From a virus, in IMG/VR virus record IMGVR_UViG_3300049846_001694, positions 1 through 26,945 of that record: DNA of 26,945 bases, one strand, 5' to 3'. This document shows, in pieces, positions 14,807 to 26,945 of the stretch (the first letter of the stretch is position 1; each line of letters opens with the position of its first letter). Below the pieces are notes generated by a model. That model made no database searches, was not told the origin of the DNA, and saw only the letters and a list, made by a program, of their open reading frames with translations. The translations under genes were made by a program, and so were the position numbers.

Positions 14807-15808
14807 ATGCCTAGTTTTGAAATTGGAAGAAAAAAAGGGGTTGATAAGTTAACACCAGAGCAATTTAAAAAACCGCGTGAGCTTGCACCTGAAAATTCAC
14901 AAGTCAAAAAAAGAGCACAGAGGGCGGATGTAAAATTGCCTAAAATACAAAAAGAAGAATTGACTCTTGTACAAAAAATCCTACAAGAAATGGGATGTGG
15001 CTGTGGAATGAAAAAGCACAAGACACCCGAAGAAATCGCAGAAAAGCATGGTAAATCTGTTGACTATATCAATAAACAATTAAAAAGTGGAATTAAAGTA
15101 GAACATGAACACACAACTGATGAACATGAAGCGGAAACAATCGCTCTTCAACACCTTTCTGAACGTCCTGATTATTATGAGCGGTTGAAGAAAGTAGAAA
15201 AAGTTGACGAGGCAAATAAAGAAGATCCTTGTTGGGATGGATATGAGCAAGTAGGCATGAAAAAGAAAGGCAAGAAAAAGGTTCCAAATTGTGTTCCAGT
15301 TAAAGAATCTTTTAGACTTCCTGCCCAGAATGGACAACTTTTACATATTTTACATTCTTGGCGGGGTAAAACTTTGGCAACCCAACTATTTTTCCCAGCA
15401 GGAAAAGTGCCAAATCGCCGTGAAGTAGCCGATGCCATCAATAAAGTTTATCCAGATAGCAAGTTATTGTCTTATAGAGTTGGTAATTTTGCTCCTGATC
15501 AACCTTTAATTCAAGTGGCTAATACTGGATCTAAAAATTATCTATTGAACAACGGTACTATTGGTGAAAGCGCAGCCTGGACACGTAAAGAAGGACAAAA
15601 CAAAGAAGGTGGGCTAAATGAAAAGGGAAGAAAATCTTATGAAAAAGAAAATCCCGGAAGTGATTTAAAGCCTCCTCAACCTGAAGGTGGTCCAAGAAAG
15701 GATTCATATTGTGCTCGGAGTAAAGGACAACAACAAATGCACAATATTGACTGTAGCAAAACTCCAGAAAAGCGCATTTGCCTTGCCCGTAAGAAGTGGA
15801 ATTGTTAA
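14807..15808 (+). CDS. Composite basic protein with DUF5661-like domain, between gp16 and gp17
   Basis: A 333-residue protein of unknown function built from recognisable blocks. Residues 1-60 are basic and probably disordered. There is a Cys pair, GCGCG, at 63-67. Residues 71-133 (KTPEEIAEKHGKSVDYINKQ...VEHEHTTDEHEAETIAL...PDYYERL) resemble the phage domain DUF5661. Residues 139-164 carry the motif EDPCWDGYEQVGMKKKG...VPNCVP, which I associate with marine phage head or scaffold proteins. Residues 169-236 form an unassigned module around SWRGKTLATQLFFPAGKVP. Residues 258-333 (WTRKEGQNKEGGLNEKGRKS, ENPGSDLKPP, LARKKWNC) form a conserved phage C-terminal block, possibly DUF6321. Four cysteines (302, 316, 325, 333) in that end could bind metal. 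Its place between the two terminase genes suggests a packaging or head role; that is inference. A weak Shine-Dalgarno-like GAGTAAAG precedes the ATG. Confidence 0.7.
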   Translation: MPSFEIGRKKGVDKLTPEQFKKPRELAPENSQVKKRAQRADVKLPKIQKEELTLVQKILQEMGCGCGMKKHKTPEEIAEKHGKSVDYINKQLKSGIKVEHEHTTDEHEAETIALQHLSERPDYYERLKKVEKVDEANKEDPCWDGYEQVGMKKKGKKKVPNCVPVKESFRLPAQNGQLLHILHSWRGKTLATQLFFPAGKVPNRREVADAINKVYPDSKLLSYRVGNFAPDQPLIQVANTGSKNYLLNNGTIGESAAWTRKEGQNKEGGLNEKGRKSYEKENPGSDLKPPQPEGGPRKDSYCARSKGQQQMHNIDCSKTPEKRICLARKKWNC

Positions 15809-15834: not shown

Positions 15835-18800
15835 GTGGGAAAAACTAACGATGTATATTTGGGTAATCCGCTATTAAAGCGAGCCCATACTGAAACCGAG
15901 TTAACTTATGAGCAGATTATTGAGTTAGCTAGATGTGAGCAAGATCCTTTGTATTTTGCTAGTAACTATATTCAAATTGTAACGCTAGATCATGGCCTGC
16001 AGCCATTTTCTCTTTATAAATTTCAAGAGAAAATGTTGCGAACATTCCATGATAATCGTTTCATTATCTGTAAACTGCCGAGACAACCACTATCATTAGA
16101 TACACCCGTACCAACTCCAAGGGGGTGGTCTACGATAGGAAAATTGAAAATAGGAGATAAAGTATTTTCATCGGCAGGACAACCAACAAAGATTGTTGCT
16201 AAGTCAGAAGTTTATATTGATGCAGACTGTTATAAAATTAATCTTGATTGTGGTGAGAGTATTATTGCAGAATCTGATCATTTGTGGGAAGTCTTTGAGT
16301 CAGGTGATCGCACGGTACTTCCGACTAAAATTTTATTTGAACATAAGGATAAAAACTACTATTTAAAGCGTGCTCAATTAAAAGGAAAGGATAAAAGGTT
16401 TCCTGACGATTGGGATAAAGAGATTAAAATAGTATCAATAGAAAAAACCGATACTGTTCCAGTTGCATGTATTGAAGTGGAAGATACTACCCACATGTTC
16501 TTATGTGGTAAAAACTTCATTCCGCAAAAAAATTGTGGAAAATCAACAACTGTAGTTTCTTATCTTATACATTCTTTAATTTTTAATGAAAAGTTTTCTA
16601 TAGCTATTCTTGCAAACAAAGCAAGTACAGCAAAAGATTTGCTCGCTCGTCTAGCAGTGAGCTATGAAAATCTTCCAAAATGGATTCAAGCTGGCGTTAA
16701 ATCTTGGAATAAGACTTCAGTAGAGCTTGAAAATGGGTCAAAAGTAATGGCAGCCTCTACTTCAGCATCTGCGGTAAGAGGAGGTTCCTATAATATTATT
16801 TTCCTTGATGAGTTCGCATTCGTTCCTAACCAAATTGCATCAAACTTTATGAATTCGGTTTATCCTACTATTACCTCAGGAGATAATTCCAAAGTTATTA
16901 TAGTATCTTGTGTCACCAAAGATACTTATTTATTAACTCCAGATGGTTATCGTAAAATGGAGACCCTTATTGATGAAGATAAAGATGGTGCTTATTTTAC
17001 TGAAGGATATACAGTAAGGGGTAAAGATAAGTTCTATAAGGGAGAGATTGTTGTTAATAGCGGCAAGGCTCCCACAAACATCATTAAGACTCGTTTGGGG
17101 ACTCTTGAGTGTTCAGAGAAGCATAAACTATGGGCATACAAAGACGGGAAATATGACTATTTTAAGAGTTCTGAACTTTCAGTAGGTGATTACGTCTCAT
17201 TGAGATATAATGAACAAATCTATGGTAATCAAGATTATGTAGGTTTTTATCCAGACAAAAATAAAAACAAAAATGTATTTTCTTGTGACTATATTACTCC
17301 TGATGTGGCATATTTTGTCGGTCTTTATGTTTCCGAGGGGTATGCTAGAAAGATTTTTAAGTCAGATGGTGTCAGTGAAAGGGGTGGTCAAATTGTAATC
17401 AGTTGTGGGGATGACGTTTCGGAGGTCTTAACTAGACTTGATATTAAGTACACAAAAAAGGACGAAGTACATTATTCAATTAATTCACTTCATTTAGTTA
17501 AATTTTTAGAATTTCTTGGATTTGACATTACAAAGAAAGCTCCACGGAAAATCTTGCCTAACAAGGTATTAAGTTGGTCTAAAGAAAATCTCATTGCCTT
17601 ACTTCAAGGTATGTTTGATGGAGATGGTTGTGCTACAAAAATAGGGTCTGTTTCTTATACGTCAACTTCATATGAATTGGTGCGTCAAGTTCAACTTCTC
17701 TTGGCTAATATGGGCATTTTAACTTCCTACTATGAGAGAACTTCTCCACCATCTGAAAGAGTTAAAGTTTCGTCTACAAATCATAATGTTGAAGCTACTG
17801 GATTATTTGCCAAAAAGTTTTTTGAGGAAATTGGATTTAGATTTGAAAGGAAACAAAACAGGCTTAGTTTATTAAAAGTGTCCAAAAGGGAAGGCAATCA
17901 GCAGGACGTGATTAATGATTCTATTCGTGTTATAAGAGAAAATATTATTATTAAGACTCCAAGAATAAAGTGGTTAGTTAACAGATGTAAAAAATTCAAG
18001 CATCTGTCAAGAAGAGCCATTTTAACAAGTAAAAATGAAATCCAAGAAAATGGCAATCAATACTTAAAGGATTTCATTGAAGATAATGTTCATGAGAACT
18101 TAGTATGGGTAAAAATAAAAGAAATAGATAAGTCGGAAAACGAGGTTTTTGACGTATCGCTTCCAGATATTGAGGGTGATAAGTGGTGTCATTCTGTTCT
18201 TTATAATAATTTCTTGGGCCATCAAACCCCTAACGGTATGAATTTGTACTATAAAATGTGGGATGATGCGATCAATAAACGTAATGAATATGTACCAATT
18301 GAAATTAATTGGTACGATGTTCCTGGTAGAGATGAAGAATGGAGAAGATCAGTAATATCTAACATTGGTGAATTGGCTTTTGAGCAGGAATTTGTTTGTT
18401 CGTTCCTAGGATCATCCAATACACTGATTTCGGGAAGTAAATTAGGTGCATTAAAATTTAATAGTCCATTGAGATCAAAAAATAAATTAGATATCTACGA
18501 AGAACCAATAAAGGACCATGTTTATGCCATTACTGTTGACGTTGCTCGCGGCGTAAATAAAGACTATTCTGCATTTTCTGTTATTGACATTACAGAAATG
18601 CCATATAAACAGGTAGCAAAATTTAAAGATAATCAAATAAAGCCATTATTATTTCCTTATGTTATAAAAGATGTAGCTGAAACTTACAACAAGGCATATA
18701 TTCTTTGTGAAGTAAATGACGTTGGTGATCAAGTTGCCACTGGATTACATGATGAACTTGAGTATGACAACATGTTAATGTGTAGCGTTAGTAGCAGAAA

Positions 18801-19263
18801 GGGTCAGATTGTCGGACAAAACTTCTCAGAAAAAGCTGCCTGGGGAGTAAAGATGCAAAAGAATGTAAAACGCATTGGTTGTTTAAATCTAAAGGCTCTT
18901 ATTGAAGAGGATAAATTACTCATTAATGATCTTGATACCATTAATGAGTTATCTACTTTCATTGCTAAAAATGGATCATGGGAAGCTGATGATGGAAAAA
19001 ACGATGATTTAGTACTCACTTTGGTTATTTTTGCCTGGCTATGTACTAATCAATACTTTAAAGATCTTCAGGACCAAGATCTAAGAAAAAAATTATATGA
19101 AGAGAAAATGGCACAAGAAGATGATAGTGTATTGCCATTTGGTTTTGTTAACTTGGGTCTTGATAATGCAGTTGAACAGAGCGATGATGGTACTATATGG
19201 ATGGCAGCAAATCCAGAGAAAGAAATAGAAGATCTAGCCAATTTGTGGAATTATTTCTATTAA
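15835..19263 (+). CDS. gp17: Large terminase subunit gp17 containing two inteins
   Basis: The ATPase-nuclease motor that drives DNA through the portal and cuts concatemers. The precursor is 1,142 residues; removing inteins at 85-233 and 359-797 leaves 554, near the normal size for marine T4-like gp17 (T4: 610). Extein motifs: Walker A LPRQ/CGKSTT (slash marks intein 1); Walker B IIFLDEFAF with Asp325 and Glu326; coupling motif VIIVS/TPNGMN (slash marks intein 2). The RNase H-like nuclease has VDVARG with Asp902, CEVND with Glu959, and KNDDLVL with Asp1057/1058, matching T4 Asp401, Glu458 and Asp542. The start is GTG: an in-frame TAG lies at 15820 with no ATG between, and a weak AGG lies 11 bases upstream. 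The terminase call is certain; splicing is inferred from motifs. Confidence 0.95.
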   Translation: MGKTNDVYLGNPLLKRAHTETELTYEQIIELARCEQDPLYFASNYIQIVTLDHGLQPFSLYKFQEKMLRTFHDNRFIICKLPRQPLSLDTPVPTPRGWSTIGKLKIGDKVFSSAGQPTKIVAKSEVYIDADCYKINLDCGESIIAESDHLWEVFESGDRTVLPTKILFEHKDKNYYLKRAQLKGKDKRFPDDWDKEIKIVSIEKTDTVPVACIEVEDTTHMFLCGKNFIPQKNCGKSTTVVSYLIHSLIFNEKFSIAILANKASTAKDLLARLAVSYENLPKWIQAGVKSWNKTSVELENGSKVMAASTSASAVRGGSYNIIFLDEFAFVPNQIASNFMNSVYPTITSGDNSKVIIVSCVTKDTYLLTPDGYRKMETLIDEDKDGAYFTEGYTVRGKDKFYKGEIVVNSGKAPTNIIKTRLGTLECSEKHKLWAYKDGKYDYFKSSELSVGDYVSLRYNEQIYGNQDYVGFYPDKNKNKNVFSCDYITPDVAYFVGLYVSEGYARKIFKSDGVSERGGQIVISCGDDVSEVLTRLDIKYTKKDEVHYSINSLHLVKFLEFLGFDITKKAPRKILPNKVLSWSKENLIALLQGMFDGDGCATKIGSVSYTSTSYELVRQVQLLLANMGILTSYYERTSPPSERVKVSSTNHNVEATGLFAKKFFEEIGFRFERKQNRLSLLKVSKREGNQQDVINDSIRVIRENIIIKTPRIKWLVNRCKKFKHLSRRAILTSKNEIQENGNQYLKDFIEDNVHENLVWVKIKEIDKSENEVFDVSLPDIEGDKWCHSVLYNNFLGHQTPNGMNLYYKMWDDAINKRNEYVPIEINWYDVPGRDEEWRRSVISNIGELAFEQEFVCSFLGSSNTLISGSKLGALKFNSPLRSKNKLDIYEEPIKDHVYAITVDVARGVNKDYSAFSVIDITEMPYKQVAKFKDNQIKPLLFPYVIKDVAETYNKAYILCEVNDVGDQVATGLHDELEYDNMLMCSVSSRKGQIVGQNFSEKAAWGVKMQKNVKRIGCLNLKALIEEDKLLINDLDTINELSTFIAKNGSWEADDGKNDDLVLTLVIFAWLCTNQYFKDLQDQDLRKKLYEEKMAQEDDSVLPFGFVNLGLDNAVEQSDDGTIWMAANPEKEIEDLANLWNYFY
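16087..16533 (+). other. Intein 1 of gp17: 149-residue mini-intein, proline at position 1
   Basis: An in-frame insertion at precursor residues 85-233 that splits the Walker A motif between Gln84 and Cys234. It has the intein Hint-fold blocks. Block A is PLSLDTPVPTPRGW then KIGDKVF, block B is ESDHLWEV (His149, Trp151), block F is VACIEVEDTTHMF (Cys212, His220), and the C-terminal splice site is FIPQKN followed by Cys234. It has no room for an endonuclease. Residue 1 is Pro (CCA), so the usual Cys1/Ser1 nucleophile is absent. Trp in block B and Cys in block F match the class 3 signature (WCT), but the expected Thr before His-Asn is Gln231, His is Lys232, and the +1 residue is Cys rather than Ser/Thr. 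It may be a divergent class 3 intein or one that splices poorly. Confidence 0.88.
16909..18225 (+). other. Intein 2 of gp17: 439-residue intein with LAGLIDADG endonuclease
   Basis: An in-frame insertion at precursor residues 359-797, between Ser358 and Thr798 of the ATPase coupling motif. The N-terminal splice block starts with Cys359 (CVTKDTYLLTPDGYRKMETL); block B is LGTLECSEKHKLWA. A two-motif LAGLIDADG homing endonuclease follows: FVGLYVSEGYA at about 494-504 with Glu501, and LLQGMFDGDGCA at about 589-600 with Asp597. The C-terminal blocks are VFDVSLPD, HSVLYNNFLGHQ, ending in Gln797 instead of the usual Asn, with Thr798 as +1. It therefore looks like a class 1 intein with a terminal Gln, a known but uncommon variant. 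The endonuclease motifs keep acidic residues, so homing activity is possible. Confidence 0.93.
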
Positions 19264-19287
19264 ATATATAATCAAAAACCCCAAAAA

Positions 19288-19306
19288 ATCTAAATAATCT
19301 TTAGAT
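19288..19306 (+). promoter_or_regulatory. AT-rich hairpin and possible late-promoter box before gp18
   Basis: ATCTAAA and TTTAGAT are perfect 7-base inverted repeats around a 5-base loop, in the 65-base gap between gp17 and gp18. The segment also contains TCTAAATA (19289-19296), one mismatch from a NATAAATA late box. There is no U-run after the hairpin, so it is a poor terminator. The role is not certain. Confidence 0.3.
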
Positions 19307-19328
19307 AAACGATTTATTGGGAGAAAAG

Positions 19329-21473
19329 ATGGCAACGCCACAATTATCACCAGGAGTACTAATAAGGGAAGTTGATTTAACTGTTGGTCGCCCGGCTAAC
19401 ATTAATGATAATATCGGAGCCATTGTAGGCCCTTTCTCTATTGGTCCTGTTTCTGAGCCTGTAGATATTCCCTCAGAACAAGATCTTATCAATGTATTTG
19501 GTAAGCCACTTAGTACAGATGCCCAATATGAGTATTGGATGAGTGCAAGCTCATTCCTTTCTTATGGTGGTGTTCTTAAGGTAGTCAGAGCCGATGGTGC
19601 CAATTTAGTCAATGCTAATGCTGCCCGCAACATCTCTGGTGTTTCTACTGTAGGCGATGTTTCACTAAAGATCAAAAACTATGATCAATATGAAGCTGAG
19701 ATTGCAGATGATGATTCTGTAAATTATGTTTTTGCAGCTAAAACTCCAGGTAGCTGGGCTAATGATCTTAAGGTTGCATTTATTGATGATAAGGCCGATC
19801 AAATTATCACCATCGGAACAACCTCATCTAATCAGATAACTGTAGGTGCTGCCGTTACTTCATCTGTAACTAGTGTTGCTATTGGTGTTGGTACTACCTC
19901 AGTCTTTACTGGTTATGTAAAAGCTGTTGTTACTGGTATCAATACTGCTCTTGGTACCGCCGATGTAAAAATCGTAGCTAAGGTAGAGTCTGGAACTAAT
20001 ATTGAAACTCCTATTGTTTACTCTCAGAGAGATCCGCTTGCATCTTTCCGCACTAGCACTACTGTTGGATTTGGTTCAACTACTGCTAGCGTAAGCCAGA
20101 TCGCGGATTGGTACGATGAGCAAACTATTAATCTAACGAATACCACTATTTACTGGAAGTCCATTGCGCCCAAGCCAACTACCACTCAGTATGCTCTTGA
20201 AAGAGATAGCCTGAATGATGGTATCAATATTGCTGTATTTGATGATACTGGGGCAATTACTGGAATTCGTGGTAATTTGATTGAAAAGCATATCGGTCTA
20301 TCTAAGGCTTCAGATGCAGTTTCTGCTGTAAATTCCCCTCAGAAAATCTTCTGGAAGAACTATCTTGCTCAATTCTCCAATTACATCTATGCTGGCGACA
20401 ACCCTTCTGATGCTGGAAATAATGAGAAAGTTTATCAGACTAACGTTGGGTTGACTACTGCTCAGGGGCTATGGAATCTTCCTGCCCAAAGTAAAACTTT
20501 CTCTGCTCTAGGTAATGTCACCTACACTCTAAGTGGCGGTAAGGATTACGGAGCAAATGGTGGTCATTCTGCTACTCTTGGAGATTTGGTTAATGGCTAT
20601 CGCCTATTCACCAATAAAGAAGAAATTGCTGTTGATTATCTAATTAACGGTCCTGGTCTAACCAGCAAGTTTGAATCACAAGCTAAGGCACAAGAACTTA
20701 TTGCCATTGCCAATCAACGTAAAGATTGCATTGCGGTAATTTCTCCACACAGAGCCGATGTGGTTGATTTGACTAATACTGATGTTCAGACTGATAATGT
20801 AATTGAATTCTTCTCTCCACTAGCATCAAGTAGCTATGCCATTTTTGATAGTGGCTATAAGTATACTTACGACCGCTTTAATAACAAATTCCGTTATATC
20901 CCAACTAATGCTGATATTGCTGGACTTTGTGTTAGAACTGGTATTAATGCCTATCCTTGGTTCTCTCCTGCTGGACAACAGCGTGGTGTTCTTAACAATG
21001 CCATCAAACTTGCCTATTCTCCAAATAAGGCACAGAGAGATCAGCTTTATCCTCTAAGAATTAATGCCGTAATCAATCAGCCTGGCGTTGGTATTATTCT
21101 ATTTGGTGATAAGACTGCTCTTGGTTATGCTTCTGCCTTTGACCGCATTAACGTCCGTAGACTGTTCTTAACTGTAGAACAGGCCCTAGAAAACGTAGCC
21201 ACTGCTCAACTGTTTGAACTAAACGATCAAATTACTCGGGCAAACTTCGTTAATAGCGTAGAGCCTTATCTTCGTGATGTTCAGGCAAAACGTGGTGTTT
21301 ACGACTTCAGAGTAATTTGTGATGAGACTAATAACACCCCTGACGTTATTGATAACAATGAATTCCGTGCTGACATTTTCCTGAAGCCAACTAAATCTAT
21401 TAACTATGTGACTCTTACCTTCGTTGCTACCCGTACTGGCGTCAGCTTTGAAGAAGTTATTGGTCGGGTTTGA
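19329..21473 (+). CDS. gp18: Contractile tail sheath protein gp18
   Basis: The subunit that polymerises around the tail tube and contracts during injection. The N-terminus ATPQLSPGVLIREVDLT, then a segment around GAIVGPFSIGPVSEPV, is the classic sheath-protein start. The C-terminal domain (PLRINAVINQPGVGIILFGD, then INVRRLFLTVEQALENVATA and GVYDFRVICDETNN) is the conserved sheath core. At 714 residues it is slightly longer than T4 gp18 (659). I chose ATG at 19329 over the in-frame TTG at 19317 because GGGAG (19319-19323) then serves as a Shine-Dalgarno sequence five bases before the ATG; sheath proteins commonly start with MA. gp19 follows after 29 bases. Confidence 0.96.
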   Translation: MATPQLSPGVLIREVDLTVGRPANINDNIGAIVGPFSIGPVSEPVDIPSEQDLINVFGKPLSTDAQYEYWMSASSFLSYGGVLKVVRADGANLVNANAARNISGVSTVGDVSLKIKNYDQYEAEIADDDSVNYVFAAKTPGSWANDLKVAFIDDKADQIITIGTTSSNQITVGAAVTSSVTSVAIGVGTTSVFTGYVKAVVTGINTALGTADVKIVAKVESGTNIETPIVYSQRDPLASFRTSTTVGFGSTTASVSQIADWYDEQTINLTNTTIYWKSIAPKPTTTQYALERDSLNDGINIAVFDDTGAITGIRGNLIEKHIGLSKASDAVSAVNSPQKIFWKNYLAQFSNYIYAGDNPSDAGNNEKVYQTNVGLTTAQGLWNLPAQSKTFSALGNVTYTLSGGKDYGANGGHSATLGDLVNGYRLFTNKEEIAVDYLINGPGLTSKFESQAKAQELIAIANQRKDCIAVISPHRADVVDLTNTDVQTDNVIEFFSPLASSSYAIFDSGYKYTYDRFNNKFRYIPTNADIAGLCVRTGINAYPWFSPAGQQRGVLNNAIKLAYSPNKAQRDQLYPLRINAVINQPGVGIILFGDKTALGYASAFDRINVRRLFLTVEQALENVATAQLFELNDQITRANFVNSVEPYLRDVQAKRGVYDFRVICDETNNTPDVIDNNEFRADIFLKPTKSINYVTLTFVATRTGVSFEEVIGRV

Positions 21474-21486
21474 TTTTAAATAAACT

Positions 21487-21493
21487 AAGGAGG
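21487..21493 (+). promoter_or_regulatory. Strong Shine-Dalgarno sequence of gp19
   Basis: AAGGAGG lies nine bases before the gp19 ATG. It is the strongest ribosome-binding site in the window; most other genes here have none or a weak one. It fits the need for many copies of tail tube protein. Confidence 0.85.
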
Positions 21494-21502
21494 AAATTCT
21501 AA

Positions 21503-22132
21503 ATGTCAACTTTACGCACTATTACTGGTTTCAAAGAGCGCCTCGCTGGTGGTGGTGCTCGCAATAATCTCTTTGAGGTAGATATTCCTGCCTTCCCTGC
21601 TTCTTTAGGGATCACTTGGGACTCTGAAACAATCAAAACTTTCAAGTTTCTTTGTAAGGCAGCCACTTTACCTCAGTCTCAGATTAATCCTATTGAGGTT
21701 CCATTCCGGGGTCGTAGTTTGAAAGTTTCTGGTGATCGTATTATTGATCCATGGACCGTTACTATCATCAACGACGAAGATTTCAGACTTCGTACTGCTT
21801 TTGAGCAATGGGCTAACGGTATTAACAAGTTGGATAACGCTACTGGTGCTACTAATCCAGCATCCTATATGGTTGATGCCTACGTGTATCAACTCGGTCG
21901 TGGTGCAGACTTGGGTAAATTCTCTAAGAATCACTCTCAGATTTTCCCCGAGGGCCAAATTCCTCCACTTCGCACATATAAGTTCTATGATATCTGGCCT
22001 TCTAATGTTGGTCCTATTGACGTTTCCTATGAATCTGCTGATCAAATTGAGGAATTTACTGTAGAATTCCAAGTTCAGTGGTATTCTGCTGGCGAAGGTA
22101 CTCCTGACCAGACTGGAACTGTTATCCGCTAA
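21503..22132 (+). CDS. gp19: Tail tube protein gp19
   Basis: The subunit of the inner tail tube, built in stacked hexamers inside the sheath. The N-terminus LRTITGFKERLAGGGARNNL followed by FEVDIP, and the central CKAATLPQSQINPIEVPFRG and WTVTIINDEDFRLRTAFEQW, are the conserved T4 tail-tube signature. The end (DQIEEFTVEFQVQWYSAG) is the usual beta-strand C-terminus. At 209 residues it is longer than T4 gp19 (163). Position directly after gp18, with a strong ribosome-binding site, supports the assignment and high expression. Confidence 0.96.
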   Translation: MSTLRTITGFKERLAGGGARNNLFEVDIPAFPASLGITWDSETIKTFKFLCKAATLPQSQINPIEVPFRGRSLKVSGDRIIDPWTVTIINDEDFRLRTAFEQWANGINKLDNATGATNPASYMVDAYVYQLGRGADLGKFSKNHSQIFPEGQIPPLRTYKFYDIWPSNVGPIDVSYESADQIEEFTVEFQVQWYSAGEGTPDQTGTVIR

Positions 22133-22140
22133 GATAAATA
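22133..22140 (+). promoter_or_regulatory. Candidate T4-type late promoter before gp20
   Basis: GATAAATA fits the NATAAATA late box and starts at the gp19 stop. It is the same 8-mer as the box upstream of gp8 at 1337. If used, transcription would start near 22147, inside the hairpin that follows. Confidence 0.4.
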
Positions 22141-22164
22141 GTTCTACTAAAAATGTAGAACTAT
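22138..22164 (+). terminator. Perfect 10-base-pair hairpin between gp19 and gp20
   Basis: ATAGTTCTAC and GTAGAACTAT are exact inverted repeats around the loop TAAAAAT, followed by ATTTTTC. This is the shape of an intrinsic terminator after gp19, although only three of ten pairs are G-C. It ends seven bases before the gp20 ATG, so it could also affect gp20 translation. Confidence 0.5.
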
Positions 22165-22171
22165 ATTTTTC

Positions 22172-23866
22172 ATGGCTAAATTATTTGGTTTTTCAATTGA
22201 TGATAAGGAAAAACTAACTCCATCTACATTGTCCCCCGTTCCTCCTAATAATGAGGACGGGGTTGATCATTATATTACTTCTGGTTTTTTTGGTTCTCAC
22301 ATAGACATTGAAGGTGTTTATAGAACTGAATTTGATCTTATTAGGCGATATCGTGAAATGTCATTGCACCATGAGGTGTCAAATGCTATTGAAGATATCG
22401 TAAATGAAGCTATTGTATCAGACACTAATGATTCTCCTGTTAAGATTGAACTATCCAATCTTAATGCAAGTGATGAACTAAAGGAGATTATTAGAACAGA
22501 ATTTAAGACTGTTTTGGAGCTTTTAGATTTTGATAAAAAGGCCCACGAAATTTATCGTAACTGGTATATTGACGGCAGACTTTACTATCATAAAGTTATT
22601 GATTTAAAAAAACCCACTGATGGCATTCAGGAATTGCGTTATATTGATGCAATGAAAATGCGGTATGTTCGTAGAGCAAAGGGGGAAGATAAGAGCAAAC
22701 AAAACCTTAAAACTAACGTTCGCGGTGAAGTTAATCCCATGGATTTAGCTTTCCCAGAAATTGAAGAATATTTTGTTTATCACCCAAGAGCAGAAAATCC
22801 TATTGGAACACCGTCAACAGGACAAACTGCAGGGTCTGATGCCGGAATAAAATTTGCAAAAGATGCAATTACCTATTGTACCTCTGGTCTGGTAGATCGC
22901 AATAAAGGAACTACATTATCTTATTTAAATATTGCAATTAAGCCTCTTAATCAACTAAGAATGATTGAGGATGCAATCGTAATTTATCGGTTGACCCGTA
23001 GTGTTGAGCGTAGAATTTTTTACATTGATGTAGGGAATCTACCTAAGGCCAAGGCAGAACAGTTTTTGCGGGAAACCATGCTCCGGTATCGCAATAAACT
23101 TAATTATAATTCTACCACTGGTGAAATTACTGATGGTAGGAAGTTTATGTCTATGATGGAAGATTTCTTCCTTCCTAGACGTGAAGGCGGAAGAGGTACT
23201 GAGATTACTACCCTTCCTCCCGGACAAAATCTCGGAGAATTAACCGATTTAAATTACTTCAAAAAAGAACTATACAAAGCACTTGAGATTCCTAGCTCTC
23301 GTATTGATGGTGATGGTGGATTTAACCTTGGTAGATCATCTGAGATCCTCAGAGATGAAGTGAAATTTTCTAAATTTGTTGGTCGTTTAAGAAAAAGATT
23401 CTCTACCTTATTTGTGGATCTTCTAAAAACCCAATTGATTTTGAAGAATATTGTTACACCAGAAGATTGGAATCGGATGGTGGAGCATATTCAATTTGAT
23501 TTTCTTTATGATAATCATTTTGCTGAACTTAAAGAAGCTGAATTGCTATCTGAAAGATTGAATATGGTTTCTCTTGCCGAACCTTATGTTGGTAAATATT
23601 TTTCACAAGATTATTTACGTCGTAATATTCTTAAGCAAACTGACGAAGAAATTGTTGAGCAAGATAAGATTATCCAAAAAGAGATTGAAGAAGGAATCAT
23701 CCCTGATCCCGCAACTATTGATCCTACTACTGGTTTACCTTTCGCTGAAGTCCCCCCAGAAGGTGCTGGTAATAATATCCAAGGGGATAGTGGGAAAATT
23801 CCAGTAGATCCGCAAATTAACGCTTCTTCGGTAGAACCCCCTAAGATTAAAGGAGCTGAGATCTAA
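22172..23866 (+). CDS. gp20: Portal vertex protein gp20
   Basis: Twelve copies form the portal ring through which DNA enters and leaves the head; it is the docking site for gp17. At 564 residues it is close to T4 gp20 (524). Conserved segments include FDLIRRYREMSLHHEVSNAI followed by EDIVNEAIV (about residues 55-84), HKVIDLKKPTDGIQELRYID then AMKMRYVRR (138-168), YRLTRSVERRIFYIDVGNLP with KAKAEQFLRE (274-302), a loop around FFLPRREGGRGTEITTLPPG, and the segment EIPSSRIDGDGGFNLGRSSE (about 373-392). The C-terminus is Pro/Gly-rich and probably flexible. No Shine-Dalgarno sequence is visible. In T4-like genomes the prohead core and protease genes usually follow; here sugar genes follow instead. 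Confidence 0.96.
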   Translation: MAKLFGFSIDDKEKLTPSTLSPVPPNNEDGVDHYITSGFFGSHIDIEGVYRTEFDLIRRYREMSLHHEVSNAIEDIVNEAIVSDTNDSPVKIELSNLNASDELKEIIRTEFKTVLELLDFDKKAHEIYRNWYIDGRLYYHKVIDLKKPTDGIQELRYIDAMKMRYVRRAKGEDKSKQNLKTNVRGEVNPMDLAFPEIEEYFVYHPRAENPIGTPSTGQTAGSDAGIKFAKDAITYCTSGLVDRNKGTTLSYLNIAIKPLNQLRMIEDAIVIYRLTRSVERRIFYIDVGNLPKAKAEQFLRETMLRYRNKLNYNSTTGEITDGRKFMSMMEDFFLPRREGGRGTEITTLPPGQNLGELTDLNYFKKELYKALEIPSSRIDGDGGFNLGRSSEILRDEVKFSKFVGRLRKRFSTLFVDLLKTQLILKNIVTPEDWNRMVEHIQFDFLYDNHFAELKEAELLSERLNMVSLAEPYVGKYFSQDYLRRNILKQTDEEIVEQDKIIQKEIEEGIIPDPATIDPTTGLPFAEVPPEGAGNNIQGDSGKIPVDPQINASSVEPPKIKGAEI

Positions 23867-23894: not shown

Positions 23895-24830
23895 ATGGAC
23901 AATAAAAGAATTTTTATCACTGGTGGAACAGGTTTTCTTGGCAGAGCAGTAATAAGAAAGTATTATAACAACAATCAAATAACTGTCTATTCTAGGGACG
24001 AGGCTAAGCAATATTATCTACAAAAACAGTTTCCAAATATCTCTTGTATTTGTGGGGATATAAGGAATTATGACTTAATGCTCAGGTCAAGTAGATCTCA
24101 TGATATTGGTATTTTTGCCGCATCTTTTAAACAGATTCAAGCTTGTCATGATAATTATGAAGAGGCAAATCAGGTAATAGTTCAAGGTGCGTTTAATAGT
24201 CGGAGATGTGCCGAAGAAAATCAATTTGAATCGGCATGTTTTATCTCTAGTGATAAGAGCAGATCGGCAACAACAATTTACGGTGCAATGAAATATGTTG
24301 CCGGGGAGTCTTTCATATCTAATCATAAAAAAACAAATGTGCGACTAACTACCGCTCTTTATGGTAATGTTCTAAACAGCACTGGAAGCATTATTCCTTT
24401 AATATGGAAAAGTATCCAAGATGACTTCCCCTTGTCTCTTTATGGTGAGGAGATGACTAGATTTTTTATTGACGTTGAAGATGCCGTAGATATGATTGAA
24501 TTCTCTCTATTTAATCTACATGGATATAATGTAATCCCAATTCTTCAGAGTATGAGGATAGCGGATTTATTTCAAATTTTTAGCGAAGAATTTGGTCTTA
24601 AATATTCAATATCCCAACCTAGACCGTGTGAAAAGATCCATGAAATAATGGCATCCCAAGATGAAGTTCCTAGGATAAGAAAGGAACATAATTTTTATCT
24701 TATGCATCAAAAAGAAATATACAATGAAGTAAAATTTCCTAATAATCAATATTCGTCCCAAGACTCTGTAATTGGTAAAGACCAATTATATCAATTTCTA
24801 CAATCAAAGAATTTTTACAAACCTCAATGA
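23895..24830 (+). CDS. NAD(P)-dependent nucleotide-sugar 4,6-dehydratase/epimerase-like protein
   Basis: An extended short-chain dehydrogenase of the polysaccharide-biosynthesis group (FlaA1/PseB/WbjB/CapD type), which acts on UDP-N-acetylglucosamine-like sugars in the cytoplasm. The Rossmann motif GGTGFLG is at residues 10-16. The catalytic segment SSDKSRSATTIYGAMK contains Ser119-Asp120-Lys121, the SDK seen in 4,6-dehydratases, and Tyr129/Lys133 of the YxxxK motif. The C-terminus (IMASQDEVPRI, NNQYSSQDSV, DQLYQFL) has the MxSxxE...YSS pattern of this subfamily rather than of UDP-glucose 4-epimerases. The 311-residue length is normal. It overlaps the next gene by ATGA. The exact substrate and product are not determined; a role in making a deoxy-amino sugar for surface glycan is inferred from family and neighbour. 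Confidence 0.85.
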   Translation: MDNKRIFITGGTGFLGRAVIRKYYNNNQITVYSRDEAKQYYLQKQFPNISCICGDIRNYDLMLRSSRSHDIGIFAASFKQIQACHDNYEEANQVIVQGAFNSRRCAEENQFESACFISSDKSRSATTIYGAMKYVAGESFISNHKKTNVRLTTALYGNVLNSTGSIIPLIWKSIQDDFPLSLYGEEMTRFFIDVEDAVDMIEFSLFNLHGYNVIPILQSMRIADLFQIFSEEFGLKYSISQPRPCEKIHEIMASQDEVPRIRKEHNFYLMHQKEIYNEVKFPNNQYSSQDSVIGKDQLYQFLQSKNFYKPQ

Positions 24831-26945
24831 AAGTATTTGTATTTGGTGCAAGTGGGATGTTAGGTCAATACCTAACAAAATATCTTTCCTACTATTTTGA
24901 AGTAGTTCCTATTACTCGCAATGAAATAGATCTGACTAAAGAGATTTCATTGATTACACAAAAATATACCTTTGATAGCTCTGACCTAATTATTAATGCG
25001 TCCGGTATCATTAAGCAAAGAGACTATTCTTCTGAGGAATTAATCCGAGTTAATAGTCTATTTCCACATTTCCTAGCTAGGCTCGGGTGTAATGTTATTC
25101 ATATTACGACTGATTGTGTTTTCAGTGGTAATACAGGTCATTATGACGAGGATTCCCCTCATGACTGTTTAGATGATTATGGTAAGAGCAAATCTTTAGG
25201 TGAATGCAAAGATTTAACTATAATTCGCACATCAATAATCGGAGAAGAATTGTACAATAAACGATCTTTACTTGAAGTGATCAGAGCAAGTAAAAATTCT
25301 ACCATTAATGGATTTATTAATCATTTTTGGAATGGGATTACATGCCTAGAGCTATCAAAGCAGATTCGCAATATAATTGAAACAAACTCCTATTGGAAAG
25401 GGGTAAGGCATTTTCATTCTCCAGATACAGTGAGTAAATTTCAGTTAGTATCTTATATTAACGAAATTTACAAATTGGGCAATACGGTTAATCCTATGAT
25501 GGTAAATTACTGCAATAGAAGTTTATCCACGAAATACGATAATCCAGTAAAAACCAATATAAGGGATCAAATTATTGAATTGAGGGAATTTGGGAGTAAC
25601 CCATTTAAAGCTAAAGAAAGCAAGTTAGAAGGATTTCCCCCAGTAAATTTTATTAGCATACCTGAATCTCACGAAAGAAGAGAAAAACTTATTAATACTT
25701 TAAAAAAATATAATGTCAAAACGGTACGACCTTATATTTACGAAAGGTATAAAAGTGGTGATCATAAAATTGTTTTTCCTGATCCAAATGAATTGCCTGA
25801 TTATAAATTTTCCTTTCCCGATGCTTGCCTAGGAGCTTTTACTTCACATTTTAAGGCTATTAAGGATTGGTATGAAAATACAGATGAAGAATACGCAATA
25901 TTTTGTGAAGATGATATAAGTTTTGAAACCGTTGAATATTGGAATTTTACGTGGAAAGAATTTTTTGATAATCTTCCTGTAGACTGGGAATGCGTTCAAC
26001 TTTCATTAGTGAGGGCTGAGCCTACCATTTTTATTTTTTATGGTGATGGGATACAACTTAGACACAGATGTTGGTGTGATTGGTCGGCCTGTGCTTATCT
26101 GATAAACAGAGATCGGGCAAGGAAGATGCTAGACACCTATTATGACGGTGAAACTTTTGTTTGGGACTACAGGGGATCCGATAAGCAAGTTAGAAAAGAG
26201 CAACATTACCAGACATGGCCTTATGAGCCTGGAATTGAGACTATAATCTTCAGTATCTTAGATAATAAGCCGGTTTATACTTTCCCTCTTTTGGTATTTG
26301 ATAACACTGCCGAAACTACAGTTTGGGGCGAAGACGGAAATCAGAAAAATATGTTTGGATATTCTTATTCTGCTATTACTAATTGGTGGAAAACCGAAGG
26401 TAAAAATTTGAGCATAAAAGATCTAATAAAGATAAAAAGCTGTAACGACAGTAAATTAACGGCGAAAGAAAAATTAAAAAACTTTCCTTCCGTTAATTTC
26501 ATCAACACTTTTGATTTAAAAGATAGGAGAGAGTATCTGTTTAATGCATTTAAGGAATGTGGGTTAACTAACATTACACCGCATATTTTCAAAAGGTATG
26601 AAGAAGGAGATTGTAAAATTGTTTTCCCACCTAACCATCAGCATAATTTTCCCAATTCATATTTTGGTGCATTTACATCACACTTGAAGGCAATTAAAAA
26701 ATGGTATGAAACCACTAATGAAGAATACGCTTTCTTTTGTGAAGATGACATAAGTTTTGAAACTGTTGAGTATTGGAATTTTACTTGGGAAGAGTTTTTT
26801 AATTCGTTACCATCTAATTGGAATTGTGTGCAGCTAGGTTTAACTAGGTATACAGACACTATGTTTTTATATTTTGATTCTGGGGTTAAGCTCCGAGCTA
26901 GATGTTGGTGTGATTGGGGTGCATTTGCCTATCTAATTAGCAGGA
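24827..26945 (+). CDS. RmlD-like reductase fused to tandem GT25-like glycosyltransferase domains (3'-truncated)
   Basis: ATG at 24827 overlaps the preceding stop (ATGA). The frame then stays open for 706 codons to the window end. Residues 1 to about 255 form a short-chain dehydrogenase of the dTDP-4-dehydrorhamnose reductase (RmlD) type: GASGMLG at 7-13, TTDCVFSG near 94-101, and YGKSK with Tyr118/Lys122; RTSIIGEEL and NGFINHFWNGITCLEL also fit that family. Residues about 270-545 form a domain resembling family 25 (LPS-type) glycosyltransferases, starting PPVNFISIPESHERREKL with EDD at 361-363 in FCEDDISFETVEYWNFTW. Residues from about 553 repeat it, starting PSVNFINTFDLKDRREYL, with EDD at 639-641. 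The reductase probably completes the sugar begun by the upstream dehydratase, and the transferases attach a sugar. Acceptor and sugar are unknown; the end of the protein is missing. Confidence 0.82.
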   Translation, partial: MKVFVFGASGMLGQYLTKYLSYYFEVVPITRNEIDLTKEISLITQKYTFDSSDLIINASGIIKQRDYSSEELIRVNSLFPHFLARLGCNVIHITTDCVFSGNTGHYDEDSPHDCLDDYGKSKSLGECKDLTIIRTSIIGEELYNKRSLLEVIRASKNSTINGFINHFWNGITCLELSKQIRNIIETNSYWKGVRHFHSPDTVSKFQLVSYINEIYKLGNTVNPMMVNYCNRSLSTKYDNPVKTNIRDQIIELREFGSNPFKAKESKLEGFPPVNFISIPESHERREKLINTLKKYNVKTVRPYIYERYKSGDHKIVFPDPNELPDYKFSFPDACLGAFTSHFKAIKDWYENTDEEYAIFCEDDISFETVEYWNFTWKEFFDNLPVDWECVQLSLVRAEPTIFIFYGDGIQLRHRCWCDWSACAYLINRDRARKMLDTYYDGETFVWDYRGSDKQVRKEQHYQTWPYEPGIETIIFSILDNKPVYTFPLLVFDNTAETTVWGEDGNQKNMFGYSYSAITNWWKTEGKNLSIKDLIKIKSCNDSKLTAKEKLKNFPSVNFINTFDLKDRREYLFNAFKECGLTNITPHIFKRYEEGDCKIVFPPNHQHNFPNSYFGAFTSHLKAIKKWYETTNEEYAFFCEDDISFETVEYWNFTWEEFFNSLPSNWNCVQLGLTRYTDTMFLYFDSGVKLRARCWCDWGAFAYLISR

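Follow-up and report, generated by a model that had tools for sequence, protein, structure and literature searches.

A proline-1 class 3-type mini-intein that divides the terminase P-loop of a T4-like virus and lies outside the strict WCT signature

Results and discussion

The DNA analysed here (the window) is a 26,945-nucleotide stretch of the IMG/VR virus record IMGVR_UViG_3300049846_001694, in which a gene for a gp17-type large terminase, TerL, is surrounded by T4-like structural genes coding for baseplate, connectors, sheath stabiliser, TerS and portal. The nearest TerL was that of Synechococcus phage B23 (57%). Over 17380–22428 the window is matched at 99.9% by two further contigs, which stop short of the mini-intein described below, and a search for psbA as a host marker in the related, partial contigs found none. 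A 333-aa gene (14807–15808) lies between those for TerS and TerL; a gene occupies the corresponding position in phage B23 as well, and the C-terminal module of the 333-aa product is common to many PHROG families of unknown function. The portal gene is adjoined by a nucleotide-sugar epimerase gene (23895–24830), and a long open frame (24827–26944) has a dTDP-sugar reductase-like start and then, by eye, repeated glycosyltransferase-like segments.

The TerL precursor is encoded on the plus strand by an open frame of 1142 aa (15835–19263, GTG start) containing two inteins, with Pfam matches to Terminase_6N (9.4e-17), Terminase_6C (3.9e-15) and LAGLIDADG_3 (1.9e-15). Its N-extein (15835–16086) ends in ...IICKLPRQ and is followed by a mini-intein of 149 in-frame codons (16087–16533; precursor residues 85–233), which splits the T4-type P-loop at LPRQ|CGKSTT. 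The mini-intein starts with Pro1, ends in QKN|C ahead of CGKSTTVVSY... and is devoid of an endonuclease domain. A middle extein (16534–16908, from CGKSTT... to ...KVIIVS) holds the rest of Walker A together with Walker B, and leads into a second, 439-aa intein of class 1 type (16909–18225; Cys1, LAGLIDADG domain detected by Pfam) and a C-extein with the nuclease domain (18226–19263; TPNG...). The second intein ends in Gln (LGHQ|TPNG), not Asn, and is missing from the related contig L003, which has a clean empty site instead.

An earlier note, made from the letters of this DNA, had proposed an insertion of 149 codons between LPRQ and CGKSTT, and this is borne out by the open frame across the insert and by the junctions of relatives. 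Excision of the mini-intein gives LPRQ+CGKSTT, which matches the uninterrupted relatives (LPRQxGKST; RQ-x-GK[ST]) and restores an intact host motif, as exact insertion of an intein demands. A junction at GK|S, as in phage B23, was rejected because CGK lies 3' of the insert here and 5' of it there, and because both inserts occur together in one gene of some phages.

In precursor and intein numbering respectively, the key residues are His149/His65 (B:10), Trp151/Trp67 (B:12), Cys212/Cys128 (F:4), His220/His136 (F:13), Gln231/Gln147 (G:5), Lys232/Lys148 (G:6) and Asn233/Asn149 (G:7), followed by Cys234 as the +1 residue. The block B core His65-Leu66-Trp67 (B:10 to B:12) is encoded at 16279–16287, Cys128 at 16468–16470, His136 at 16492–16494 and Gln147-Lys148-Asn149 at 16525–16533, where the class 3 consensus is Thr-His-Asn; Cys+1, the first C-extein residue and the first variable residue of the P-loop xGKST, is encoded at 16534–16536. 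The mini-intein thus has His65, Asn149 and Cys+1, as inteins in general do, and lacks the penultimate His at G:6 (Lys148), a residue that is usual in inteins, not universal. All residues named earlier (Pro1 as CCA, Trp151, Cys212, Gln231, Lys232 and Cys+1) were confirmed; the block F His at F:13, also present, had gone unmentioned. CCA had been placed two base changes from a Cys codon, which is wrong, as all three positions differ from either Cys codon. The accompanying view that Pro1 is not a sequencing error holds: Pro codons CCA, CCT, CCC and CCG all occur in complete members of the clade described below, and the sequence of a relative was recovered twice, on contigs of two samples.

The hallmark by which class 3 inteins are recognised is the Trp-Cys-Thr (WCT) triplet. 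The window mini-intein has no Cys, Ser or Thr at position 1 (Pro1) and possesses both Cys F:4 (Cys128) and Trp B:12 (Trp67), but the third WCT member, Thr G:5, is Gln147, leaving two of the three signature positions occupied as expected. The description of a Pro-1 mini-intein with an incomplete class 3 signature (Trp and Cys present, Thr replaced by Gln and His by Lys) was therefore accurate. Comparison with the PDB by phmmer returned the class 3 inteins Msm DnaBi1 (6bs8, E 2e-22) and Mch DnaB1 (6rix, 1.4e-21), a similarity far above chance. The profile alignment with class 3 inteins that the earlier note had suggested agrees with this, as the best solved relatives found with a profile of the mini-intein family were class 3 DnaB inteins, at 1e-25. 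An AlphaFold2 model computed from the family alignment (pLDDT 89.7) came nearest to the same class 3 DnaB inteins, with TM-scores by target length reaching 0.89, and the catalytic residues of class 3 inteins line up with His65, Trp67, Cys128 and Asn149; specifically, His65 and Trp67 align with Msm DnaBi1 and Cys128 with the class 3 DnaB Cys. The Pfam and NCBIfam intein models gave no match to the mini-intein above cut-off, and its PHROG matches were mainly to TerL families. Sequence, fold and tree all place it among class 3 inteins. It does not belong with class 2 KlbA, given that Cys128 is present and the best relatives are class 3. Hoffmann et al. collected class 3 inteins by the absence of Cys1 and the presence of Cys F:4, and found 4.6% of 1701 to deviate at Thr G:5 (PMC7891396), so the window intein falls within this operational definition and outside the strict signature. 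Judged by its sequence, it is best classified as class 3 by homology and putative nucleophile, outside strict WCT. Pro1 is not unusual for class 3 inteins, as it is also found in others of our sample (PLALDTP or PLALNTP in L142, L154 and L161).

Msm DnaBi1 and Mch DnaB1 share with the window intein its mini size, the lack of a position-1 nucleophile, the same predicted fold and the residues His65, Trp67, Cys F:4 and terminal Asn; they end, however, in THN|S within DnaB, whereas the window intein ends in QKN|C within TerL, and identity is about 30%. The nearest homologues in named phages are the TerL inteins of Synechococcus phage B23 and Klebsiella phage RaK2, which have a FLCGK-FIP block in common with it. 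These, like those of L050 and L062, are class 3 inteins in the same P-loop, but they sit at GK|S/T, three residues downstream (after CGK), measure about 330 aa with an endonuclease and, in our sample, always end in THN with Ser or Thr at +1. Four GK|S-site class 3 TerL homing inteins (L206, L211, L213 and L214) have Pro as their first residue, not Ala. The AceL NrdHF intein, for which fast class 3 splicing has been demonstrated, also has no penultimate His and deviates from WCT (PMC7891396). It is split, with Met B:12, Thr G:5, Gly G:6 and Arg B:11 and no F:13 His (PMC7891396), while the window intein keeps Trp B:12 and the F:13 His and loses Thr G:5. Bvi IcmO, described in 2016 as the sole class 3 intein then known to have Cys+1, shares that residue with the window intein, but was reported to have the class 3 signature motif and resides in another host gene (PMC5222942). 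Replacement of the penultimate His, by Lys among others, has likewise been reported in phages, in mycobacteriophage class 1 inteins; their chemistry is, however, that of class 1, and conservation of the class 3 WCT triplet was high in that survey (PMC5050341).

Relatives, gathered by searches of viral contigs, came from metagenomic T4-like phages. Several distinct lineages of T4-like TerL have Pro1 mini-inteins of 144–153 residues inserted exactly at LPRQ|[CS]GK, and every relative with an intein at this site has Cys or Ser as its +1 residue. Another virus, represented by two contigs from two samples (L002/L003), has the same insert at the same site, 70% identical and likewise ending in QKN|C. 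The others end in THN|S (L177, L181 and, as a partial further case, L219), TQN|S (L174), TEN|C (L010), TMN|C (L009, L098, L100, L101, L176 and L180) or TIN|S (L108, L110 and near-copies). Aligned members are 35–70% identical to the window intein, and Pro1, His65, Trp67, Cys128, His136, Cys140 and Asn149 are invariant in all twelve sequences. Cys140 (16504–16506) and Cys48 (16228–16230) are two more clade-invariant cysteines, possibly redox partners of Cys128.

Of 13 distinct mini-inteins, two have the usual His at G:6; the other 11 have Lys, Met, Ile, Glu or Gln instead. At G:5, only the window lineage and its 70%-identical relative (alignment row L012) have Gln, the other 10 rows having Thr. 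At B:11 the clade has Leu (as in the window), Phe, Gly, Val or Gln; compensation by Arg B:11 in the style of AceL NrdHF was ruled out, as no member has Arg there. We extracted 71 distinct class 3 inteins, a sample drawn by similarity to the mini-intein family and so no census, and all 57 at other sites end in THN; the 14 at the mini-intein site comprise the 13 minis and a full-length THN intein in L236. In a tree with G:5–G:7 masked, the minis form one clade (support 96/94), and at least three changes in His G:6 status are required, in keeping with repeated loss of this residue. The missing penultimate His is a trait of the clade, not a defect of one sequence, and only the window lineage has lost the G:5 Thr. 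Intein and extein identities are strongly correlated across the clade (Mantel r 0.91, p 1e-4), which indicates that the intein is inherited with TerL.

The L236 intein, which occupies the same PRQ|SGK site (TerL ORF on the minus strand), is an Ala1 LAGLIDADG class 3 intein ending in THN|S. It falls outside the mini-intein clade, and a single group for all Q|C/S-site inteins was rejected (AU p 0.045); the site has therefore probably been invaded twice. The C-terminal part of the L236 TerL has an apparent further mini-intein ending in VVSHN|C. A pattern scan for Thr+1 inteins at the mini-intein site produced chance matches only, and a pattern search of bacterial genomes confirmed no relative.

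In L098, L100/L180, L101 and L102, only the extein residues CGK separate the mini-intein from a second class 3 insert downstream, a canonical LAGLIDADG intein ending in THN|S. The presence of both class 3 inserts in one TerL shows that their P-loop sites are separate alleles. L176 (the same contig as L101) and L180 have a third intein at motif III, equivalent to the window's own class 1 intein, and thus three inteins per TerL. In the limited range of literature searched, no mention of a three-residue extein between inteins was found.

Overall, we consider the insert likely to be a functional class 3-type mini-intein, passed on vertically, whose removal from TerL, by a path via Cys128, is required before the packaging ATPase can form. 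The window intein and its relatives appear, from their sequences, to splice by the class 3 route; we infer the order of steps and the roles of His136, Gln147 and Lys148 as follows. His65 would strain the Gln(-1)-Pro1 bond, which Cys128 would attack, taking the N-extein as a thioester (the block F branched intermediate) before it is passed to Cys+1 (the block G branched intermediate). Asn149 would then cyclise with the help of the invariant His136 in place of the penultimate His, and an S-N shift would give native LPRQ-CGKSTT. The F:13 His is the natural remaining candidate for helper of the C-terminal step. Since the G:5 Thr completes the Cys-His-Thr triad in MchDnaB1 (PMC7664689), Gln147 is proposed to take its place, probably by hydrogen bonding to His65. 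Lys148 is probably tolerated and not catalytic, as related inteins have Met, Ile, Glu or Gln at G:6, of which Met and Ile are incapable of acid-base work, making a specific catalytic role unlikely.

The best reading is that C-terminal cleavage would proceed without need for a penultimate His. This chemistry is plausible in the light of two precedents: AceL NrdHF, without His C2:13 and His C1:6, has a half-time near 4 minutes, and still splices, about tenfold more slowly, when Thr C1:5 is changed to Ala (PMC7891396); among mycobacteriophage class 1 inteins, some of which have Gly, Lys or Ser at G:6, one with a penultimate Gly became slower once His was restored (PMC5050341). Counting against it, the two usual helpers, Thr G:5 and His G:6, are missing together, and the AceL-type Arg B:11 is absent.

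Loss of the penultimate His could instead tune splicing to be slow or conditional on redox, zinc or temperature. Mycobacterial DnaB inteins have been described as stress sensors (PMC6195587), Cys140 and Cys48 are invariant beside Cys128, and within the sample His is lost only in the vertically inherited, endonuclease-free clade. The His-less precedents, however, are fast (PMC7891396, PMC5050341) and some clade members retain THN, and we regard such tuning as improbable. A class 2-like path, with direct attack of Cys+1 on the N-terminal junction and no nucleophilic role for Cys128, is less probable still. KlbA inteins do combine Ala1 and Cys+1 with Ser G:6 (PMC4031507), and the window intein similarly has no position-1 nucleophile, Cys+1 and a non-His G:6; but Cys F:4 and Trp B:12 are invariant across the clade, sequence and fold match class 3 and not KlbA, L108, L174, L177 and L181 have Ser+1 with the same architecture, and in Bvi IcmO, class 3 with Cys+1, Cys F:4 could not be replaced by Cys+1 (PMC5222942). 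The class 3 path via Cys128 is the best reading because Cys128, the B:10 His and Trp are invariant and the Ser+1 members disfavour class 2 attack.

The earlier note had left open either a new variant of class 3 chemistry or a decaying intein. The clade and its invariant catalytic residues favour the former. Against the latter, the intein dN/dS (Nei-Gojobori) between window and L012 was 0.141 (bootstrap 0.05–0.26), with 0.10–0.24 over pairs with usable dS (all intervals below 1) and 0.005–0.06 for the exteins, absolute values being rough because dS is near saturation and exceeds 1 in some pairs. The 70% identity to the L003 intein equals the level seen in the genes nearby, at 70% for TerS and 75% for the tail sheath stabiliser. 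Within this pair Lys148 is encoded by AAA and AAG and Pro1 by CCA and CCC, the residues being kept while codons change; Gln147 is CAA in both. TerL is otherwise intact in clade members with the whole gene. The mini-intein is, on these comparisons, under purifying selection and maintained in working order rather than decaying. A decaying, non-splicing or cleavage-only intein in this essential gene is very doubtful: two conserved helpers are replaced and there is a precedent for a class 3 pseudogene intein (Arsp-FB24, PMC3196547), but that intein lacks the essential B:10 and F:4 residues and its exteins are gone, while the window intein retains both within an intact TerL, purifying selection is strong, a diverged relative still has QKN|C, and an unremoved insert would split the packaging ATPase P-loop.

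Conclusions

Returning to a working class 3-type mini-intein, we offer as a tentative, minority possibility that a clade fixed in the TerL P-loop has rebuilt its C-terminal chemistry, with G:6 nearly free, the G:5 Thr dispensable in the window lineage and the block F His as sole helper, and that it is kept for tuning TerL maturation or for shielding the homing site three residues away. One site in one host protein offers a natural series of THN, TQN, TEN, TMN, TIN and QKN endings, by which the requirement for a penultimate His and for Thr at G:5 becomes directly testable; L174 (TQN) and L177 (THN) form a near-matched sister pair. Tandem class 3 inteins with a three-residue extein pose a clean question of folding and splicing order. 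Inteins of this kind would be overlooked wherever signature-based annotation requires WCT or a penultimate His, and the clade may yield small Cys+1 class 3 tools.
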